Assembly (NCBI RefSeq): GCF_018143015.1
Contig: NC_054751.1
Span: 28,006,783 to 28,070,782, forward strand
Source of the DNA: Lytechinus variegatus
Taxonomy: Eukaryota > Echinodermata > Echinoidea > Temnopleuroida > Toxopneustidae
Length of the DNA stretch: 64,000 nt
Direction: 5' to 3'
Part shown: in pieces, positions 11,034 to 62,039 of the stretch
Position numbering within the stretch: position 1 is the first letter of the stretch
Layout of the letters: each line of letters starts with the position of its first letter
The notes under the pieces: model-generated
The model's database searches: none
Told to the model about the DNA's origin: nothing
What the model saw: only the letters and a program-made list of their open reading frames with translations
Position numbers and translations under genes: made by a program

Positions 11034-14000
11034 CATCATCACATCATCATCTTCATCATCACATCATCACATCATCATTATCATCATCATCACATCACCA
11101 TCAACATCACCATCAGAACTATCGTCTTCTTCTTTGTTACCACCACAACCATCATCACCATCACCAACATCACCACCACCTTCATCATCACCATCATCAT
11201 CATCATCAACAACTCCACCATTAATAATCTTCAACAGAAAAAAAAAGCAGCAGCAACATCATTATCCTCAAGACTAATAACAATATCATCTTCATCATCA
11301 TTACCATTTACTTCAAATTTTTTAACCGTCCTCACGTAACCCGAATCGAATCGTTCCATACTTACAGTCCTTTCAATCTCTCCTGCTTCTTCTCTTGGCA
11401 TTCTTTCCAAGAATTCATGATAGTGTTTCAGACCAATCTGTTGCTGCTTGCTCAGCTTGGCCTTTTCTCTCAAATCCTCAAGCGTCCGGAATCCCTGATA
11501 CAAATAAAAGATTAAGCAAAAACAAAAAAAAATTATTAAACATTCTTCAACAAGTAATATACTTTCTAATATATATCAAAATCAACAATAGACACCACAT
11601 ATGATTTAAAATACAAACGAACAGAAAAACTGTTATTCTCTGTCAGTGTAAAAAACAAATCGCTGAGTTTCATCATTCTACGTTCTCATGGCCACATCTT
11701 ACTGATGTCCATACATACACTAGTGTAGAAATTTAAAGGAAAAAAAAGCATGAATGACATCGACACTATTTGATATTGGTAATATTGAATGGGACTAAAC
11801 AGGGGCCACGGTTTTAAAGTAGGGGGGGGGCCTGACCTTGCACCAAATCACGATCATATGGTAATTTTACATTTTGTACACGGTTTTGGAAAAAAGTGGG
11901 GGGGGCTGAATCCCCAGCTAAAAATGAAATACATAAATTTCTTTAAAAGCTCTCTGACATCAATCTATCAAAAAGATCCCTCCATGGAATAAGTTTTTAG
12001 ATGTACTGTAAAAGAAGGAAAACAGCAACAAAAAATAAGTAAATATATTGGTATTCTGATGAACTTTGTCTGTATACCCTGTGTTGATGGAACAATTGGG
12101 AATGGAAACTTATTCACAAAATATTTTTTGTCTGTTTTTTTATCTATTTAAAAAAAAAACAAGAAATCTGAAGAAATATTTGTATCAAAGGAAAATGGAT
12201 GCCTAATTCAGTGGATCAAGTATTGCTCTGGACAAATTCTAATTCAATTTTTTTAAAGAGTTTACTGCCCATAAAATTAATAGAACTGTGAGAATAAAAT
12301 ATGTGCAAGATGTATCCTGAGGTGTTTGCTAGATTGGTTAAAACATATTACATATCATTGATTTCTACTTATGATGTACTAACTTGGACCATGGACCGAC
12401 TGGCTATTAATGGAAAGAAAACACTAGAGGGCACTCTACCAAAAATACACGAGGAAAAATTGATTCCATTTCGATATCAAATGACTTTTCCCCTAATTTG
12501 TTCTTTATTTGGTAAATCAGATTGCTCTCTAATTTGATTCAAATTAACTGCAAAAATGGAAATCAAGCGAAGGAACAATACGAGTATTATGGGCATAATT
12601 CATGACCTATCGCACTTGGCTGCTTTTGACCAATAAGTAACCCCCTTTACAATAGCCCAGTTCGTAGTTACTTCATGGGCAATTTTGGTCAAATGACCTT
12701 TCATTTCTTTCATCATGATATGCAGATTTCAAAGCAAGATATTACGTAAGCTTGCCTTACATAGCAGGATGAAGAAATTGAATAGACCAGGTGACTAGAA
12801 TAGCACACCAATGAAAACTTAATGAAGGTATTTGTTGCATTCCTACTTTGAATGCATGTCTTAGCATGTTGCACAATGTATTTGACAAACTGTGAAATAC
12901 CAGTCGTTCGTGGAAGCATGGTTGTTTTTTGTGGATGTAAATGAAAACGACAATTGAAAAGAATATATGAATAATCAAGACATCAAAGTTGGTGCTTATC
13001 TCATTAGATTTTATATCACCATGTCACTTTAGAACAAATGACCTTTTTCTGATCATGCGTAGAATCTTTTGATCATGCGTAGAAAGGAACTACGAACTGG
13101 CTTACTGACTTTCGAATCTACAATTCTCGATTAATCCAGTCGCCGTATGAAAAAAATCAGGGATAAACCTCAAACAAACGTAACAGAGATAATTTCAGCA
13201 GCTACGGTTTTCCAGCTCCCATATTCTATTGAGATCTGAATAGATCTAGGCCTGCTCTTGTTTTATCTGTTGGACCCAATCCCTAGCGACCGTTGGGCTA
13301 GCTCCCCATACATTACTGAATACCAGTACATAGATCTAGGCTTTCTCTTGTTTTACATGTTGTACTGTTGGTCTAGCTCCCCATGCATTATTTAATACAC
13401 CTTATGACCTCTTGCTTTACCTGCTGGATCTGTTCCCTAGCGACCGTTGTTCCAGCTCCCCATACATTACTGAACAGATCTATGGGCTATTGCTTTACCT
13501 GTTGGACCCATCCCCTGGCTACTGTTGGTCCAGCTCCCCATACATTATTCCATAGATCTATGACCTCTTGTTTTTTTCTGTTGGCCCCATTCCCTTGTGA
13601 CCATTGTTCCAGCTCCCCATACATTATTGAACAGATCTATGAGCTATTGCTTTACATCCCCTGGCTACTGTTGGTCCAGCTCCCCATACGTAATTCCATA
13701 GATCTATGACCTCTTGGTTTTTTCTGTTGGCCCCATTCCCATGTGACCATTGTTCCAGCTCCCCATACATTATTGAACACATCTATGGGCTATTGCTTTA
13801 CCTGTTTGACCCATCCCCTGGCTACTGTTGGTCCAGCTCCCCATACATTATTCCATAGATCTATGATCTCTTGTTTTTTCTGTTGGCCCCATTCCCTTGT
13901 GACCATTGTTCCAGCTCCCCATACATTATTGAACACATCTATGGGCTATTGCTTTACCTGTTTGACCCATCCCCTGGCTACTGTTGGTCCAGCTCCCCAT

Positions 14001-17000
14001 ACATTATTCCATAGATCTATGACCTCTTGTTTTTTTCTGTTGGCCCCATTCCCTTGTGACCATTGTTCCAGCTCCCCATACATTATTTAACACATCTATG
14101 AGCTATTGCTTTACATCCCCTGGCTACTGTTGGTCCAGCTCCCCATACATTATTCCATAGATCTATGACCTCTTGGTTTTTTCTGTTGGCCCCATTCCCT
14201 TGTGACCATTGTTCCAGCTCCCCATACATTATTGAACACATCTATGGGCTATTGCTTTACCTGTTTGACCCATCCCCTGGCTACTGTTGGTCCAGCTCCC
14301 CATACATTATTCCATAGATCTATGATCTCTTGTTTTTTTCTGTTGGCCCCATTCCCTTGTGACCATTGTTCCAGCTCCCCATACATTATTTAACACATCT
14401 ATGAGCTATTGCTTTACATCCCCTGGCTACTGTTGGTCCAGCTCCCCATACATAATTCCATAGATCTATGACCTCTTGGTTTTTTCTGTTGGCCCCATTC
14501 CCATGTGACCATTGTTCCAGCTCCCCATACATTATTGAACACATCTATGAGCTATTGCTTTACCTGTTTGACCCATCCCCTGGCTACTGTTGGTCCAGCT
14601 CCCCATACATTATTCCATAGATCTATGACCTCTTCTTTTTTTCTGTTGGCCCCATTCCCTTGTGACCATTGTTCCAGCTCCCCATACATTATTTAACACA
14701 TCTATGAGCTATTGCTTTACATCCCCTGGCTACTGTTGGTCCAGCTCCCCATACATAATTCCATAGATCTATGACCTCTTGGTTTTTTCTGTTGGCCCCA
14801 TTCCCATGTGACCATTGTTCCAGCTCCCCATACATTATTGAACACATCTATGAGCTATTGCTTTACCTGTTTGACCCATCCCCTGGCTACTGTTGGTCCA
14901 GCTCCCCATACATTATTCCATAGATCTATGACCTCTTCTTTTTTTCTGTTGGCCCCATTCCCTTGTGACCATTGTTCCAGCTCCCCATACATTATTTAAC
15001 ACATCTATGAGCTATTGCTTTACATCCCCTGGCTACTGTTGGTCCAGCTCCCCATACATAATTCCATAGATCTATGATCTCTTGTTTTTCTGTTGGCCCC
15101 ATTCCCTTGTGACCATTGTTCCAGCTCCCCATACATTATTGAACACATCTATGGGCTATTGCTTTACCTGTTGGACCCATCCCCTGGCTACTGTTGGTCC
15201 AGCTCCCCATACATTATTCCATAGATCTATGACCTCTTGGTTTTTTCTGTTGGCCCCATTCCCTTGTGACCATTGTTCCAGCTCCCCATACATTATTGAA
15301 TAGATCTATGGGCTCTTGCTTTACCTGTTGGACCCATCCCCTGGCTACTGTTGGTCCAGCTCCCTATACATTATTCCATAGATCTATGATCTCGTTTTTT
15401 CTGTTGGCCCCATTTCCTTGTGACCATTGTTCCAGCTCCCCATACATTATTGAATAGATCTATGACCTCTTACTTTACCTGTTGTACCCATTCCCTGGCT
15501 ACTGTTGGTCCAGCTCCCCATACATTATTGAATAGATCTATGGCCTCCATATCTTCTCCTTTGCAGACATGGTCTATCTTCCTAAGGTGTCCACTTTCTA
15601 TGATCTCCAGGATCTTGTCTGCCATCTTGGTTCCAATACCAGGGATGGCACTGGCTTCCTGGAAAGAAACAGAATTTTCTTTTGTCATGGGAAAAATGCT
15701 GAAATTTTACCTCAAGCTGAAAAGATTCCTACTTATAGCTCCCAGACTCTATCACCAATAGCTATCAATTACTAGTGGTGATCAGTAACATCATTCAGAC
15801 TTGTAATATATCACCACTGGTGATTGAAGCACCAACACAATTGGCAATCATGTGGAATTTCAAACACTCACTGGTTAGTTTGGTATGGGTACTGTTGGTT
15901 TATTATTCATTTTTACTTGTTCAAGCCTTGATAGGGTGTATTTCATAAAGCTTCATAAAAGCATCATGAGGTCAGGTCTGCTCAAAGGCTCTCTTCAGGA
16001 CTTGCGATATTGGTATTGGTACCAGTACTACCTGTCCAGGTAGGTGTGTTTCATAACGCTGCAGACCTTCATTTTTGAGGTGCGATCGCGCCGGCGTTCC
16101 TACCGCGCTCCTTAAAAAAAATAAGGAGAGCAAAAAATTGCGCTCCTCAAAAAAAAATTTAAAAAATAAAAAAAATTTGCTAAAATTTCACATTTCTGAT
16201 CTTTAAATCCATGAAATGGCCTTCTTTTTTCCATAATTCCTTGAAATTACTTTGATTTAGTTGAAATCTATCAGAAAATTGAAGAATATTCATCTCTTTC
16301 CCGACTCTGATTTTAATTTAATCTCGGTTAATATTGCAGTCCCATGTAGTCGAATATGTGGAGCTCTATTGAGCTCCTCAAAAAAATAAGGAGAGCGATT
16401 TATTGAGCTCCACGAAATTATAAACGTGAAGGACTGACGCTGTTCGTAAGTTAAGAGCTACTTTGAGAATGGCTGGTGAACCTTTCTTACATGCTAAATA
16501 ATCACCAATGAACATTCAATGGTGAATACCATGTACCACAAGGATAATCAATCATTCTTTGAGTCCCTCTTTAACTGTCAAACAGCTTTATGAAACGGCC
16601 CCCAGGTAGTGATCTAATAGTATCTGTCTCGAGTTGGCATCAGGAGGGCCATTCTGCTTCAAAATCTTAATATCCTTATTATGACTGCTGGTAAGCCTGG
16701 GCACCCGGCCAGCCCAAAGACTGGATTGGGTGTCATCAGCCTACATAGAACTCTTTCAAAACACTCCTCAAATCTTACCTTATTAAGCAGTCGTCTTAAT
16801 TCCATTTCCTGTTCTATCTCACTGTATTTTGCTACTTCTTTTTTCTCTTTTCTTTTTTTCTCTATATAAATGTTAATTATTATTATTGATGATGCCAGTC
16901 CTTATTCTGGATCAAGCAGACAAACCCTATGATGAGAGACATACAACGTTTCCTAAATTCCTTTATTCCCCTCTCCATCCGCAAATACAATAATCTTGTC

Positions 17001-26200: not shown

Positions 26201-29200
26201 TTAGATCTACCAGTAATTTGCAATTATGTAACATCAATTGGCCACTTTTGCATGGTGGTATAGGGGTACCGTAGCCTAAATTTTGTTTCATTGAGATACT
26301 AAATATTTGACATCACAGAACCTATTACCGGTACATGTGGTTTTGGGGTTCAATGACTTATTTCTTAATTGAAAGTGGGTCAAATTTGAACTTTTGAATT
26401 TGAAGGATACAAAATTAACCTAATTAAAATAATTAATGCCTATTTGTGTGGACTATTCATGGTGGAAGTTTGATGAATTTTAAGAAAATATGATATGATT
26501 GAATCTATGTAAAGTGTTCAGTATTACGATCCATACACTCAAGTCCAAGTTGAGGCTTTTTATGATGAGAAAATAGTGAAAGGAATCACGTCAATGTCCA
26601 CACAACCCAGACACGAGGGTTGAGGTTTCGTGAATTCTTTTATTGACCAACCAAAACAGTCTTGGTCAGAACACTACATCCCCATTTGCTTCAACATCCT
26701 CAGCCTACTGTATGTTTAACATGAAGGGAAGTCCCTGCAGAAGTCTTCTGTCTCAAAATCAAACTCTTCTTCAGGTGCAATTACCCTCATCCAACTAAAA
26801 CAGTAGGAATGTCCCTGCTAGTGACATTGTCATCAAGAGTCACTGGACTGTGTAGTGCAGTGGTGCACTTCAAAGTACAGAAGAATCCCTAAAGGGGATA
26901 CATGAATTGGCATTAGTGCTACCACTACATAGGCAGGATAGAATTAGCCAATGAGCAGAGAGGGAAATGGTTAAGGCAAAGTTGGCATAAGTAGAAAGAG
27001 GGAGAGAGAGTACTAAAGAGATTCAGATTTCTTTCCAACAGAAATTACATAAATATTGGTACAAATAATTTTTTATTAGAAAATAACAAATATTTATGAT
27101 ACAAAACATTAATGATAATATATAATGATAATACCAAACATTTTGTAGACAAATTATAATATATAGTTTAGAAAGAAGAAAGGTATCTGTGGAAAGTTGA
27201 CAGTAAAGTGAAACATATATGTTTATATTATACATATTTAAATACTACACGTATTGAAATTAAATAATAACTAGATTTTTAGAAAAATTGTACAAAAAAA
27301 AAAAACAATTTACAAGAATAGCAAATTCAAAGTTACACTATGAATGTTTTATATTCTCAATTTATCTTAATCATCTTATTTATTCATGGACTTAATTGAC
27401 CTTTGACATTCGCATTTTTGTTATTTACAGGGGCATCTAGAGTTGAGCTTTGTTCAAATTTGTTTGAAGGGGGAACCACTCCAAGCATTGGTGAGTATAT
27501 GAATTAAGTAAAATTTTCACAAACACTCCTGGTAATAAATCAATTCACCACAAAAACTTAACATTAAACATTAAGTACAGGGAAAAACGTTCATCTATTC
27601 ATGGGGATGTTCAAAGTCACTTTAAAATCGCATAATTTCTGCAAAAAGGGGGAAAACTTGTTTGTTTTCTGAATGGAGACTGGTCAGTTAGCTCTTTCTT
27701 CTTTATTCATTTCTGTCACAAACTGTAAAATTTGAAATTTACATGATAGGTTTTGACGAGTGATGGCAATTTCGAACTCTAAACATTATCCCCTTGTGGT
27801 CTTACCTTTAAATGACAATCATCGATTCTCTCATGTGCATTTGACTAAATTGCACATATAACTATTTTTGTGAAAAATAAGCGAAACATTAAAATGTCAT
27901 AATTTTATTTTACATAAGATTTTGATGAAATTTTCAGCATTATGCTTGTCTGATTTTTCTCTATTGATTCAAATCAACATATTTCTGTGGTGGACTTGAT
28001 CTTTAAATACTTTCAAGTGATAAGCAGGGGTGGTATTCTGTAACTCTGTCATAACTTTTGTCATAAATTTTGTCATTTCTCTCCGAGATATGACACAGCT
28101 ATGATTGTCACAAATCGGTATTCTGAACATTGTCTTTTCCCTGTCATATCTCTCAAAGTTCCCACCCATCTTTTCGGAAGCGAGCCAATCAAAATCATCG
28201 TTAGTTCCCAGTTGGAGCCCTTCTAGCCAATAGGAAAGCCCCATGGCAGGTAGGGCGTATCCCCAAAACAGTTGCTGGCATCGCGCAACTACGCGTATAT
28301 TGATGCGCCCTTCTAGCCAATAGGAAAGCCCCATGGCAGGTAGGGCGTATCCCCAAAACAGTTGCTGGCATCGCGCAACTACGCGTATATTGATGCGCCC
28401 TTCTAGCCAATAGGAAAGCCCCATGGCAGGTAGGGCGTATCCCCAAAACAGTTGCTGGCATCGCGCAACTACGCGTATATTGATGCGCTTAATTACAAAG
28501 AGAGACAGGGAGCTGTGAAGAATTTTAGAGGAGAAGTATAAAAGTAAGGAAAACAGAGAAAAAAAGGAGGAATAAATATGTAGGGCCTAACTAACTGTAG
28601 CATGAAAATATAATTTTGAAAATTGTTATGGAAGATGAGTGAAACTAATACCACAATCTAATCTAAATAATATAATTGTTTGCTTGACATTCAGTCGGCA
28701 GGGTATTGGGATATTTGGTACTAAAAGATATGACAAAATTTATGACTGCTACCCCCCTGTCATAACTTTTGTCATATCTTTTGCTTGTATAAAGGATTAC
28801 GCGCATTTAAAGCCACATTTTTTTTGCTGCGCGCTAAATAAAATTTATGACAATTTTTGTGACGAAAGTTATGACATCCACCAGAATACCGATTTTGTCA
28901 TATCTCTGAGATAAGATAAAATATGGAGAAAAGACAATGTTCAGAATACCGCCCCAGGATATTATTATTTGAAAAGCCCAAGTTTCTTTATTATTCCTTG
29001 TCAACAACCAATCTGTTTACTACCGGTAGTCATTTCAGCATCTTTAAATTTGCATTATTGTCTTTTCTAAACGCCAGTTATTCTATGTAATTTGAATTAG
29101 TTGAACTGTTTATGGTCTAAATTTTCATTTAGTGAAATATTATGAATAGACAAAGTAGATATTAGACATCTATGCACTAGACTAAATGAGGGTTAGACCA

Positions 29201-32200
29201 ATTGAATATTAGACCAAGCGATGGGTGGACCAAACAGTAATTAGACTAAATTGACAGTAGATCAAGTGGGTTCAGACTAAATAGATTCAAACTAAAATGA
29301 TTTCGAATGTTATTTTCTCTACAAATAAAAAATAAGACCTTTAAATCTGAGCTAATTTAACTTATATACCTATCTTTTGTAGCAACTATGTGAATAATGT
29401 CTGGCGTATTGGGGAGCTGGTGTCTTTGGTTGTTTTACAAATAAAATATACACAGGTTGTTCATCATCATTTAACCGTGGAACATGAATATGTTGAATAT
29501 TATGTGACATATTCGGGAGCTGGCACCTTTGAATATTTTGACAGATAAATAGTGCTATACAAAGGCTGTTCAGCGCATCATTTAACCGTGGAACATGCAT
29601 TATTTCTTCTCTGCCCCTTATCTTACACAATATCCCTCCTTCTTACCCCCAGGAATGCTCCAGGTGATCAAGAAGGAATGCCCAGATCTTCCTGTCTTCA
29701 TTCTGATACGCCCCAGAGGAGGGGATTTTGTTTATAGCATGTTGGAGATGGAAGTGATGAAGCAGGACATTAAACTGATGAAAGAGCATGGAGCGGATGG
29801 CTTCGTGCTTGGAGTTCTCACAAGGTACCTGGGATTTCAAAGTTGGTGTTGTCCGTTTGGTGTTTATAGTTTGGACTGACAATTACATCAATGAAGCACA
29901 TGTCCGTTATTATGAGCGTTTTATTTTTTTGTTTTAGCTTTGATCATTGTTTATTTTCCTGTATTAAATGTCCTAAATTTCTCCCTCATACATGTACATG
30001 TTTGCTGTATGTAAATAATGAATTTCATTCAATCATTTCAATATTTGATATGTTCAGAGTTGATTTATTTATACTTTTTTACTTGATTATAAAAAAAATT
30101 TGAATTGAAAATCCCCCAAGAGGAATCTTCAAATGAAGTCTATAATGAAAATAACATACAGGAATCGTTACGTTTAAAAATCGTTACGTTTAAAATCGTT
30201 ACGTTTAAAACGTTTGCATTTAAAACTCTCCCTTCCCCTAAAACAAGAATTATATGATTTTTCAAATTCATTATACATAGTGAATTTTTTTATATAAAAA
30301 GCTGTGACTATCCTATTTGAAATATATTTAAGGGATTTAATTCAGGTTTCATTTTAAATCACTTTGATACCCTATGGCTTGGGAAAGAAATGGATGAAAG
30401 TTTATCTACAAGAATGAAAGTTATAAGCCTAATGTCTATGATTATTTCCAACTGATGAAAGTTTGTATAGAATCAACCAATGGATTTCAAATATAGGATA
30501 TTTTTGTTGTTAAATAAAAATAATGATAATAATAATGATATATTTCCCGATGGTAGCCACTTCAGTTTCAAAAACTGTTCTCCCAGCGGGCCCTGCTATT
30601 TTATTTGAAATCCCGGCTAAGCTAGGCTACCTACTTTGGTGCACACAGCTCTTTGAGGAATTACTTCCTGTCGGTACCCATTTGCCACACCTGGGTCGAA
30701 AGCAGCACACTGTGGATGAATTCCCTGCTGAATATAGCATTCTATTTCTCAACATAGCAACTATCAGACTTTTTATTGCCAATAAAGAAAATGATGAAAG
30801 CTTATTATCTGCTGCAAGTTACTCTTTTGTATGCATTATCACTAACCTTTAAAGGAGAATAAAACCTTTAGAACAAGATAGCTTGTTAGAACAAGATAGC
30901 TTGCCAATGGAAGGATCTCCATAATATTAGTGATTGCAATATTCAAATGCTCATAACTTTCTCATTGCTTGTCCGATTTTTCTCAAACTTTGTTGATCTG
31001 TTTCTTTGATTTTTCTGTTTCGACACAGGCCTACTTATTCCAAAGGTTTCATTCCCCTTTAAGAAATTTGTGGTTTTGGTTGTTTTTATTCTCTATTGAT
31101 TGATTACTTTTTTTGTTTAGTGATGGAAATGTTGACAAGGACAAGTGCAGAGAGTTGATGGGTAGGTTAATTATTTCTAATTTTGTGGATAATGCTTGAA
31201 TTATTATCAAAATTGATATTTAACAACACACTATGTAGGATCATAATAATAATGATATAGTGGTATATTTACCCAGGGTAGCCACTTCAGTTCCAAAAAC
31301 TGTTCTTCCAGTGTGCCCTGCTATTATTATCCTGACTTTAGCTAGGCTGCCTAGGTGCTCAAGCATTCAAGGAATTAATCCTGCTGGGTACCATTCACCT
31401 CACCTGGGTCGAGTGCAGCACAGTATGGATAAATTTCTTGCTGAAGGAAAACACGCCATGTCTGGTATTAGAACCCATTACTCTCTGTTTGATTATGCAC
31501 CTTATGATTAAAAAAAAGTAAACATGCATGCAAGTCACATGTGTGTGTAGGAAATATTTAATTCTGCAAAAGTCACATTTAAACAAATTAAAGTTAGAAA
31601 GTATGATTTACATTTTATTTTACATAAACACCATTGTTAATACTCCTGCTCTTGTTACATATAATCAAATAGTTATGTTAGAATTTTGTATCTCTTAAAA
31701 CATTTTTGGGCTAGAAGTGTACGGTTTACCTATAATTAGCATTGTGTGATTGATGTCTTCTGTCTTCGATTTTTGTATGTTACCATTTAGAGGAGTATTC
31801 TTTCATTCATTTATTGGAGTATTCATTTGCTTATTTAGACTGAGTTTTTATCTTTGATTTTGTTTTTTAACCGAAACAATTGACACTTTGTGTTTGTTTA
31901 TTTTTCATTTAGATCTGTGCAGACCACTCCCAATGACATTTCACAGAGGTAATTCTATTGTTTACTTGGCTACTTTTAATAAGAAGATTAATTTTCTATT
32001 TTGGGATGATGTGGGCTGAAAATATGTATATCTAAATAAATAGAGTAAAATTCACATATCAAAATCGTGAAAATGTCATCAAAATCTAATAACAAATAGG
32101 GAAGTTCTTGAATTTTACAGTTTAGTAATATATTCTTAAAACAGTTAATTTCATGTCGTAATGAATATTCATTAGATGGGCTGATGATATCACATCTCCA

Positions 32201-57175: not shown

Positions 57176-59839
57176 GTTGCGATACTGCATAACAATGAAA
57201 ATTTAGTTTTTAATTTGACTTCCTTTTCGTTAATGACAGGAAATAGATAATTCAACAAAACAAAAGAGAAACATGATCTAATTGCCTTGAAGAGTTAGAT
57301 GTGCAATCCAAGGTTATGATATAAATCCAAATAAAATCTAAGTAGTTGGCGAAGATTCCTTTAATTTAAGTTGGCGATGAAGGTGATGAATAACAAGAGT
57401 CACTGTAACGAGTTGAAATGTCTGTGAAGACGATGTTGATGATGATGATGATTAACAGTCAATTTCAGCAATCCATGGGTTGGAAAGCATTCATTAAGAC
57501 AGCTTGATGACAAATGTATTCCGGTTGGCAATAAACTATGCTCTAACTTGAAGTCTGGTGTGGAATTTTCACTATTCTGGAAGCTTCTTATTGTCTACAA
57601 AAAGAACATTCTGCCAATTTTTAGAGCAGTCTAATCAGAACATTCTTGAATAAACTCAGTGAAATTAACAATGTAAACAACATAGCTAATCCTATTGTCA
57701 TTTTCACTGCCACTGGCAGTCGGTTACACTTCGTATTTCCGAAGCTTCGTAATTCCGAAGGTTCTTTATTCCGAAGGTTCGTAATTCCGAAACACGTAAA
57801 TTGCCTATACCTCGATGTTCGTTAATCCGAAAACGAAAAAGGGTTCGTTAATCCGAACATTTGTGGCGTAATTCCGACGATTCGTTATTCCGAAGGTTCG
57901 ATAATCCGAAAACGAAATAAGGTTCGTTGTTCCGAAGGTTCGTTAATCCGAAAACGAAATAAGGTTCGTTGTTCCGAAGGTTCGTTAATCCGAAAACGAA
58001 AAAAGGTTCGTTATTCCGAAGGTTCGTTAATCCGAAAACGAAAAAAGGTTCGTTATTCCGAAGGTTCGTTGATCCGAAAACGAAATAAGGTTCGTTTTTC
58101 CGAAGGTTCGTTAATCCGAAAACGAAATAAGGTTCGTTAATCCGAAAACAAAATAAGGTTCGTTTTTCCGAAGGTTCGTTAATCCGAAAACGAAATAAGG
58201 TTCGTTAATCCGAAAACAAAATAAGGTTCGTTAATCCGAAAACAAAATAAGGTTCGTTAATCCGAAAAATGAAAACCGGGAAAGCAGAGGCAAGGGGAGG
58301 GGGGCGGGGGACACTGTTGCCGTTCAATTATCATATGAGGATGGGAAGGCAAGGGCGGCCGAACGAATTTTCGTTGGGGGTAAAGCCAAAAAATGAAACT
58401 CATACGTCAAAATTGGGACTGTGGTGATATTTTCACCTTAAGATTATCATCTGCTTGAAGTCATTGTCTGTTTGATAGTGATTAAGTAGAGAATAGCTTT
58501 TTTGAAGTGACTTCTTATTATGGCAAAATGTATATTTAGGCTTTATTTTTCGGGAGAGAGTATAATGAGCGAGCGGCTTGGTAAAACAAATTCAAAGGTG
58601 AAGTTGTATAACGTTTTTTGTGGTCAGTTATTCTTAAAATGGCATTATTGCGAGGTGTTGCGAGCGTGAATCACAAGCTAAACTTTAGGTTATTTCAATA
58701 AAAAATGAAAATTAGTTTTTAAAAATCCGAGCAGATTTCTGCTGTCATTAAAAAGATGTGCATCTAACTAAAGAATTAACACGAGCGCAAAACGCGAGCT
58801 TAAACATACTGACCAGAAAAGGAACGTGTTAAAGAAAGCATTTAGTGACCTCTTTAGGATGCATATTTCACCAATCGAATGAGAGTGCGAAGCGCAAGCT
58901 GAAATTTTTCAATATTCCAGCCTGAAAACTTAACTTAACTTGTATACTTTAAAAAGAGTATTTTATTTCGAAAAAACATGAAAAACGGCATATTTGTTTT
59001 TGAAAAAGGAACTTTCCCATTTTGGAAAATATTAATTCCCCTGTTTTTTATTCCATTTTTGATGCCCCCTGCCTCCCTCCCGGCGGATCCAACTTTCGTC
59101 AAATAGAGGGGGGGGGGGGGATTTTTTTTAGCCATATTTTCCTTGATCGGCAGTTTAAAGTTGATTTTGGTTTGTTTCTTTGAAAGGGTAGTCCTAACAG
59201 TCAATAATTAGCTTTATCCTTATAAAATAAAGTAAATATGTAATAACATGATAAACCCTTTTTAAATAATGCGAGCGCGAGCTATATTTTTGTTAATATG
59301 ATGGGCAATATGTTTGTGATCTTCAAAGCGAGATGCCTATGTAACTAAATTTAGATAATAACTGCTAGCAAGAAGCGCGAACAGAATTTTTAAATATATA
59401 AGCTCTGATCTGATCTAAAGGGGACATTTTAAGAACTTTTTGCAGTTAGCCATGAAGACGATCGTGTTTTAGCCAATGGCGGCGGAACGTATTTTTGGGG
59501 GGGAGGGGCAAAGTAAAAAAAAAGGGGCCAATAGGGGCAATTTGGTGCAAACGGATATTTTCACCATTAGATTATCATCTGTGTAAAGAGGTTGTGTGTT
59601 TTTGTAGTAACTAAATTGAGCACAATTTTTTAAGTGATCACTAAACCTGCTAAAGTTATATATTTACGTTTCATTTCTGCGAGCGTAGAGAGCAAGCGGT
59701 TTGGGGGAAACAGTCAAATCTGAAGATGTAAAATTCACCTTTTTGGTCAATACTGTGAAAAGGGCATCCTTGTGAGATGTTGCGAGCGAATCACGTGCTC
59801 AATCTTTTGGAAATTTCATGTGGGCCTAGAATGATGATA

Positions 59840-60330: not shown

Positions 60331-62039
60331 GGTCAGTATATAAACAAATTACAACTCGCCCTCGCATTAATTCTTTAGAAAGATACACATCTTTCTCACG
60401 ATTACAAAAAATGCTCCGAATGCTCACTTCACGTCTTGTTACATGAAATGTCTACTAGTTTCAGCTTGCGATTCGCGCTTTCAACATCTCACAAGTATCA
60501 TTATTAGTATTATTTTTATTTTTATTACCAGCAGAAGCTGTTATTAAAAATGACATCCCCTCCAATACAAATCCTATTATCTAGAGGTTGCTCGCACGCT
60601 TCCAACATACTTGATCCCCTGCATCTTTAATTAAACCATTTGCTTATAGGCAGCAATTGCTCAGATAAAATCGAAATTAGCCTATGCTTGATCAGGGCGC
60701 CATTCTTAATGAAATACATGTATGCTTTGGCCCCAACACACATCATCGATCGTTATTACTATCATTGCATAATATCGTGTAATCTTGTAATGACAACATC
60801 GTTTTTGTTACCAAAATGAATTATTTTCATTTTCGGAAATACGAACCTTATTTCGTTTTCGGATTAACGAACCTTATTTCGTTTTCGGATTAACGAACCT
60901 TATTTCGTTTTCGGATTAACGAACCTTATTTCGTTTTCGGATTAACGAACCTTATTTCGTTTTCGGGTTAACGAACCTTATTTCGTTTTCGGATTAACGA
61001 ACCTTCGGAATTACGAACCTTATTTCGTTTTCGGATTAACGAACCTTCGGAATTACGAACCTTATTTTGTTTTCGGATTAACGAACCTTCGGAATTACGA
61101 ACCTTATTTCGTTTTCGGATTAACGAACCTTCGGAATTACGAACCTTATTTCGTTTTCGGATTGACGAACCTTCGGAATTACGAACCTTCGGAATTACGA
61201 ACCTTCGGAAATACGAACCTTCGGAATAACCGAACCTTCGGAATTACGAAGCTTCGGAATTACGAATGTATGCGCTGGCAGTCTATTGTCTATCTTAGTA
61301 CATTCCAGAAATAACAAAGATTATTCTTTCTCATTAATAGCATGCCTAACAAAGCTTTACTGAGACATTCTGGAATATATTCTAAATCATTATATGCTAT
61401 GAATAACCTTAAAGAGGAACTAACTAATGTTATTGCTCTTACAATTCTGATATATAACATTGTAAACTCCTGAAGAAGACAGAGGAGCAGCAAAAATTGG
61501 AGTGAACAATAAAAACTTTATTGGCAATCAAATCATTATCGTCAGCATTATTTTTTTTACCTCACAGAAGCCAATACATGAAAACTTTAAGATGTATATA
61601 GGCCTATATATATATATATATATAGGTGCATATTTCTGCTTTATAAATCAGGAACAAGTAGTTATAGTCAGTGATGGAATGATCACAAAATTTTGAGGGG
61701 GCCAGATATATATGCCGTGGGCCAAAATTTCTAAAAAGCTGGAAGTGATCGAGCTGCATGTGAGCAATTTTTAAATATTTTTCTCAATAAAATCCATTTA
61801 AAAGAAATAGTTTTGAAATATTTCAGATTATGATATCATATTCTATCGTTTTCACTTTCCTTTTTAATTTTTTTTTGAGGGAGGGTGGTCCATAGCCCTC
61901 CCCCACCTGTATGCCAGTGGTAAATTATTTCTTTTTATTTTGTCTTGGAAATCAACCGTTTTTATTTCAGAATAAAAAAAGTAAATCCTGGTAGGCTTTT
62001 GTATTAGGCGTGATTAAATAGGGGAAGTGGGAGTTTCCC

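Follow-up and report, generated by a model that had tools for sequence, protein, structure and literature searches.

An exon-seeded minisatellite in intron 4 of the DNA polymerase lambda gene of Lytechinus variegatus

What becomes of a gene when the end of one of its exons, splice donor included, is copied again and again into the following intron? This question is raised by POLL, the gene for DNA polymerase lambda, in the sea urchin Lytechinus variegatus, where a tandem array (hereafter, array 1) starts directly at the end of exon 4. The locus was studied in a stretch of 64,000 nucleotides (nt) of contig NC_054751.1 (hereafter, the window; C12:28006783-28070782, C12 being this contig) in an assembly of 869.6 Mb and 33 contigs. 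POLL is encoded on the minus strand of the window, and its exons are numbered here as in an earlier note on this DNA. We favor, at a probability of about 0.7, the view that array 1 is an exon-seeded minisatellite that is tolerated and mostly silent, with the potential to supply poison donors (i.e., splice donors whose use ends the protein early). A second array of the same kind lies at the last POLL exon.

Anatomy and source of the array in intron 4

The unit of array 1 is 78 nt long and consists of the final 63 nt of exon 4 followed by the initial 15 nt of intron 4. Excision at the motif TATGGGGAGCT, followed by alignment, gave 30 units including the exon itself (u00–u29), plus one decayed relic, in agreement with the roughly 30-fold amplification reported in the earlier note. 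That note derived the unit from the last 74 bases of exon 4 plus the start of the intron; the exon-end origin holds, but the exonic part is 63 nt, or slightly longer when microhomology at the boundary is included. Unit u00 is the exon end itself and u01 directly adjoins it, so the array abuts the authentic exon, as the note had stated. Tandem Repeats Finder (TRF) placed the array at ~13363-15547, with periods of 157, 78, and 303 (scores 3440, 1860, and 3497), and array 1 occupies ~57% of the 3,984 nt of intron 4. The main features, in window positions, are as follows.

11362..11494, minus strand: POLL exon 5, the next exon (end approximate)
15479..15658, minus strand: POLL exon 4, 180 nt, phase 0 at both ends (acceptor, donor, frame; PDB and Pfam match)
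15479..15541, minus strand: the seed, last 63 nt of exon 4, the exonic part of u00 (unit alignment, blastn)
13196..15463, minus strand: tandem array in intron 4, u01–u29 and the relic (TRF, motif cutting, alignment)
13562..15463, minus strand: units u01–u25, in which B alternates strictly with A or C; u26 (type A) comes next
13252..13483, minus strand: old diverged units u27–u29
~13196-13229, minus strand: decayed relic copy, read directly, where the earlier note had ended the array

The exonic parts of the 29 extra units are 79–94% identical to the exon (gaps excluded), and the units differ mainly in the fate of the donor CAG/GTAAAG (the slash marks the junction). Type A (8/29) retains it; type C (5/29) is A minus 11 nt, leaving GAT/GTAAAG; in type B (13/29), GTAAAG has changed to AAAAAA or similar and the donor is lost; and among the old diverged units (3/29; u27–u29) it is retained in u27. 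Intact donors are therefore found in nine of the 29 extra units (eight of type A plus u27), the number given approximately before. Units u01–u26 form an unbroken run of pairs, each pair being a B unit followed by an A or C unit; mean unit identity is 95–97% at even lags vs. 70–71% at odd lags. At a higher level, a 303-bp block of four units (A-B-C-B') has five complete occurrences, four of which differ mutually by 0.7–1.7%, with the exon-nearest block differing from these by 3.3–4.3%. Alignment and block comparison thus support the proposal, made earlier, of local tandem duplication followed by amplification of the 303-bp, four-unit block. The palindrome ATAGATCTAT occurs 16 times in the exon end and array and nowhere else in the window.

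Exon 4 is the source of the units, because its protein is conserved to human and its end alone is repeated. The joined translation of exons 3–5 matched human DNA polymerase lambda in PDB (E 6e-54). In blastn searches, the last 63 nt of exon 4 gave 30 matches in the window and its 20-kb flanks (exon counted) and none in a random sample of 20 stretches of 10 kb from this genome (399,640 strand-positions), whereas the first 117 nt of the exon matched only themselves in the window and flanks and produced one chance-level match (E 0.71) in the random stretches. A whole-genome DNA search returned at least eight matches, all inside array 1. The exon origin has thus withstood both a search for the unit at unrelated loci and a comparison with chance, and a dispersed repeat is unsupported, array 1 having been found at one genomic place only. 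It can be described as an exon-seeded tandem array, found at a single genomic place and made up of units that are homologous to a conserved coding exon of POLL itself.

The window contains the BRCT exon and exons 3, 4, 5, and 6 of POLL, and a query of exons 4–6 found a single match per exon in the genome. No later exon turned up in the 36 kb that follow exon 6. A thumb-domain search located two more POLL exons on the same strand (C12:27906831-27906944 and C12:27905538-27905693), ~117 kb from exon 4; the last coding exon is an open frame ending DYREPQERDY-stop. These downstream exons, with their open frame and stop, speak against a pseudogene or truncated POLL. Between exon 6 and C12:27906831-27906944, one expected exon was not found, with C12:27907101-27976782 lying outside the sequence read.

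History of the copies and a second array at the last exon

The bases on the two sides of the boundary, GAGGCCATAGATC in the exon and GAGGTCATAGATC in the intron, nearly match, and this near-match is a plausible point for slippage or mispairing. A short tandem duplication over the exon 4/intron 4 boundary, between GAGGCCATAGATC and GAGGTCATAGATC, would have placed a second exon end and donor inside intron 4. After such a duplication an intact exon end remains in place beside the exon, which would explain why POLL still works. It is probable that the living exon shed copies on more than one occasion and that the oldest of them now lie furthest off. Unequal exchange or slippage probably then amplified first a pattern of two units (A with the donor, B with a dead one) and later the four-unit 303-bp block, so recently that array length probably varies between individuals; the block divergence of 0.7–4.3%, within one assembly, hints at recent change.

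A tree of the units separates the exon, A, C, and u28 from B, u27, and u29. Over codons 4–21, u27 and u29 share five differences from the exon. Four of these are at third positions; the fifth is a Ser/Asn difference, where both old units have the Ser found in human POLL. These differences fit an exon that went on evolving under protein constraint after leaving copies, which is suggestive, not proof.

Copies of the same kind were found after the last POLL exon, beyond the sight of the earlier note, which covered the window only.

C12:27904697-27905493, outside the window: second exon-seeded array (hereafter, array 2), unit 153 bp, six partly decayed copies

The unit of array 2 comprises the last 109 nt of the last coding exon plus ~44 nt (period 153), and the array lies downstream of that exon. 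Identity of its copies (v1–v6) to the last exon, by rising distance, is 93.5, 85.3, 76.5, 78.8, 71.2, and 80.3%, a trend that holds over the first five copies (Spearman -0.9, p 0.04). Third positions account for 4/8, 10/15, 10/26, 13/24, 13/20, and 6/14 of the coding differences in v1–v6, respectively, and their excess is nominally significant in v2, v4, v5, and u29 (uncorrected, the copies not being independent). We regard array 2 as independent of array 1, and the recurrence of one kind of event in a single gene as the most surprising part of the analysis. Both arrays extend downstream of an exon end, with the most diverged copies away from it and with uneven traces of earlier coding states. 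Their order (exon-like copies nearest, oldest far) and the partial third-position bias are suggestive, and only suggestive, of a living exon that seeded copies repeatedly.

Several observations weigh against this account of array 1. The deep fork in the unit tree has weak support (74/82), and u28 groups with the exon class yet stands between u27 and u29, so that unit order is not a clean time series. Over all six copies of array 2 the distance trend is not significant (Spearman -0.6, p 0.21), nor is the third-position excess in v1, v3, v6, or u27. Finally, donor use and length variation are inferred from the sequence of one assembly.

Two known processes offer partial parallels to this history. 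Introns can be gained when coding sequence that contains a proto-splice site is duplicated in tandem (PMC2891723), and the duplication in POLL likewise spans coding sequence and a splice signal; there, however, a new intron arises, whereas here an existing intron grows by copies of the exon end. Earthworm metallothionein genes carry intronic minisatellites, and tandem duplications of their fourth exon were not seen in transcripts (PMC12783039). Unlike array 1, the earthworm minisatellite is not described, in the text available, as built from units of exon plus donor.

Extra donors and their predicted consequences

The authentic and extra donors stand at the following window positions.

15473..15481, minus strand: authentic donor CAG/GTAAAG, followed by TAAGAG
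15319..15327, minus strand: extra donor CAG/GTAAAG, u02
15162..15170, minus strand: extra donor, u04
14861..14869, minus strand: extra donor, u08
14558..14566, minus strand: extra donor, u12
14255..14263, minus strand: extra donor, u16
13952..13960, minus strand: extra donor, u20
13796..13804, minus strand: extra donor, u22
13493..13501, minus strand: extra donor, u26
13415..13423, minus strand: extra donor, u27

All nine extra donors have a 9-mer identical to that of the real donor (score 7.73 on a generic table). When exon 4 is extended to any of them (9/9), the junction is followed by GTA AAG TAA, that is, Val-Lys-stop, and the frame ends at codon 63, after the 60 codons of exon 4. Use of an extra donor should thus yield a truncated protein or a decay-prone message, not a longer protein, and a protein ending at codon 63 would lack the remaining fingers, the palm, and the thumb. 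The earlier note had expected any longer product to disturb the second hairpin of the lyase domain. Neither part of that expectation is supported: no longer product arises at any of the nine donors, and Pfam places the repeated stretch of exon 4 in the fingers domain (PF10391; residues 42–88 of the exon 4–5 query), the lyase-side HHH_8 match stopping at residue 25 of exon 4.

The real donor should be favored because u01, the nearest downstream unit, has no donor, because the first intact competing donor would make a 334-nt exon, and because TAAG follows GTAAAG at the real site alone, where it forms an overlapping donor-like site and the stop. We infer that the spliceosome mainly picks the exon-adjacent donor. 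Since the Val-Lys-stop message should be degraded, the array would be at most a weak drain on POLL expression, through occasional use of a downstream donor. Splicing of the units as separate exons is unlikely: by a crude measure, no acceptor-like site in the repetitive core has a pyrimidine share near that of real acceptors, and the best in the array (0.59 and 0.53, vs. 0.65 and 0.71 for exons 4 and 5) both lie in its distal old end. As for RNA structure, one 303-nt block folds no better than its shuffles (z -1.23; 15/100 shuffles fold at least as well).

Among known systems, the nearest in kind is the donor minisatellite of human IFI6 (6-16), and the nearest in mechanism are the TERT intron 6 repeat and the Hps1 donor switch. 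The IFI6 unit is reportedly ~12 bp long, with extensions that remain in frame. Because in-frame extension fails at 9/9 extra donors here, array 1 is not classed as IFI6-type. IFI6 has tandem units at an exon end with multiple splice donors, of which downstream ones are used (Turri et al. 1995, cited in PMC4526556), and in both genes tandem, donor-holding units abut the authentic exon (here with nine CAG/GTAAAG among 29 extra units and five GAT/GTAAAG). The POLL unit differs in being 78 nt long and mostly exon sequence, its nine extensions run into a stop, and its donor role is a prediction. In human TERT, a variable-number tandem repeat in intron 6 may affect splicing by copy number, through RNA pairing or G-quadruplexes (PMC3948165, PMC11830802). 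It too is a long intronic tandem repeat in the gene of a DNA-synthesis enzyme, but it lies >1 kb from the junctions, whereas array 1 touches the exon and carries donors. At Hps1 exon 18, the upstream donor leads to protein and the downstream donor to a decay-prone message under Ptbp1 control (PMC4222953), and a downstream donor in array 1 would likewise lead to a premature stop. A single downstream donor under Ptbp1 in Hps1 contrasts with nine donors and no known regulator in POLL, and the pyrimidine-rich elements between the Hps1 donors with the lack, on direct reading, of any long pyrimidine run between the real donor and the first extra donor of POLL.

These precedents bear on the possibility that the extra donors compete measurably, each use leading to the codon-63 stop and decay, so that array length tunes the POLL level. 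The shared 9-mer and the uniform early stop are consistent with such tuning, as are the effects of a downstream donor in Hps1 (PMC4222953) and of array copy number in TERT intron 6 (PMC3948165, PMC11830802). The donorless nearest unit and competing exons of at least 334 nt argue against it. Moreover, the donor is gone in 13/29 units and weaker in 5/29, so that donors are not visibly preserved, and donor identity among the A units reflects recent amplification. We therefore judge measurable tuning unlikely, although it is the best placed of the alternatives. The proposal of the earlier note that the array provides alternative ends of exon 4, and with them longer or alternative POLL proteins, could draw on the 21-codon, exon-like stretch that stays open in many units. 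It is highly improbable: simple extension is already contradicted by the stop shared by all nine extended exons, units of 67, 76, 77, and 79 nt break the frame, and the array core offers no good acceptor.

The A units could instead serve as spare exon ends, with unequal exchange or conversion replacing the end of exon 4 while splicing stays intact. In the alternation the exon takes the place of an A unit, in the tree it clusters with A, C, and u28, and frame and donor are intact in A units; the A-specific changes (a TGG codon and a GGA codon) are, however, absent from the exon, so no recent replacement is visible, and we think such a reservoir rather improbable. An assembly artefact, in copy number or unit order, deserves consideration given that tandem arrays are error-prone and that duplicated regions seem to be present in the assembly. 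However, 16 distinct exonic stretches among the 30 units, unique flanks, ordered divergence, and old diverged units make such an error very improbable. A tolerated, mostly silent minisatellite with poison-donor potential accordingly remains our preferred reading.

Background rates and meaning for POLL

Against the genomic background, the exact 9-mer CAGGTAAAG occurred once in the 399,640 strand-positions of the random sample, vs. nine extra copies in 2.3 kb of array 1. The same sample held nine non-overlapping arrays with a period ≥30 and ≥2.5 copies, the longest being 1,407 bp. A looser pattern of spaced donor-like motifs gave 340 matches genome-wide vs. 76 for its reversed control, and therefore donor-like arrays in general are not unique to POLL. 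The matches listed include arrays at other places and stop before C12, so array 1 is not among them; some on contig C6 resemble what we take to be zinc-finger linkers. Other arrays with regularly spaced CAG/GTRAR stand, for example, at C4:57329437, C1:15627327, and C4:60466369, the first of which precedes a same-strand Helicase_C match by ~2.5–2.8 kb.

By blastn, downstream copies accompany two of seven POLL exon stretches, a fair figure being 1/6 since array 1 was the starting observation. Exon-end arrays were also sought in protein family searches (BRCT, 15 rows, one of them POLL; thumb, nine rows; Helicase_C, 105 rows with 150 of 176 candidates scored; RRM_1, 111 rows with 150 of 255 scored), in which rows were inspected by eye for overlapping matches <600 bases apart that do not share one reading frame. 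Among the 231 rows of BRCT, Helicase_C, and RRM_1, one comparable cluster, different in nature, was found (C7:18265856-18267020). It comprises three Helicase_C rows (stretch C7:18265301-18268000), which are three degenerate helicase-like copies 416–434 bp apart; the frames beside them are presumably retroelement-like. Some nearby RRM rows (e.g., C1:61902714 and 61903228) were treated as distinct RRMs within a single protein. The PF10391 search (two rows) reported neither exon 4 nor the array 1 copies; such searches miss short copies, so they yield no rate of exon-end arrays. Domain matches were often paired with equal scores on one contig (e.g., C6:16160145 and 17323225), as though the assembly had retained both haplotypes. 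A literature search, which reached few subscription papers, found no report of the POLL array.

Elsewhere in the window, arrays of a 42-bp unit at 57729-58268 and 60825-61266 lie in opposite orientation ~2.5 kb apart, an arrangement like that of a foldback element whose ends are repetitive, and a similar unit occurs in one random stretch (L013:7201-7367). TRF found a 90-bp unit present in three copies, with 100% matches, at 28217-28488, and an open frame at 29586-29879 on the plus strand resembles what we take to be CutC.

Array 1 offers a natural test of spliceosome choice, in which one real donor stands against nine copies of the same 9-mer and a wrong pick would cut the protein off immediately. 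The old units and array 2 resemble fossil copies of earlier exon versions and could let the history of an exon be read from its own neighborhood. Two independent exon-end arrays in one gene raise the question of whether exon ends seed minisatellites here more often than expected. A heritable, length-variable splicing rheostat at POLL, together with exon ends acting generally as repeated array seeds that leave a record of earlier exon versions, is a bolder and doubtful extension. If it were true, each donor-bearing unit would be one further poison donor, and array length would set the amount of a repair polymerase.

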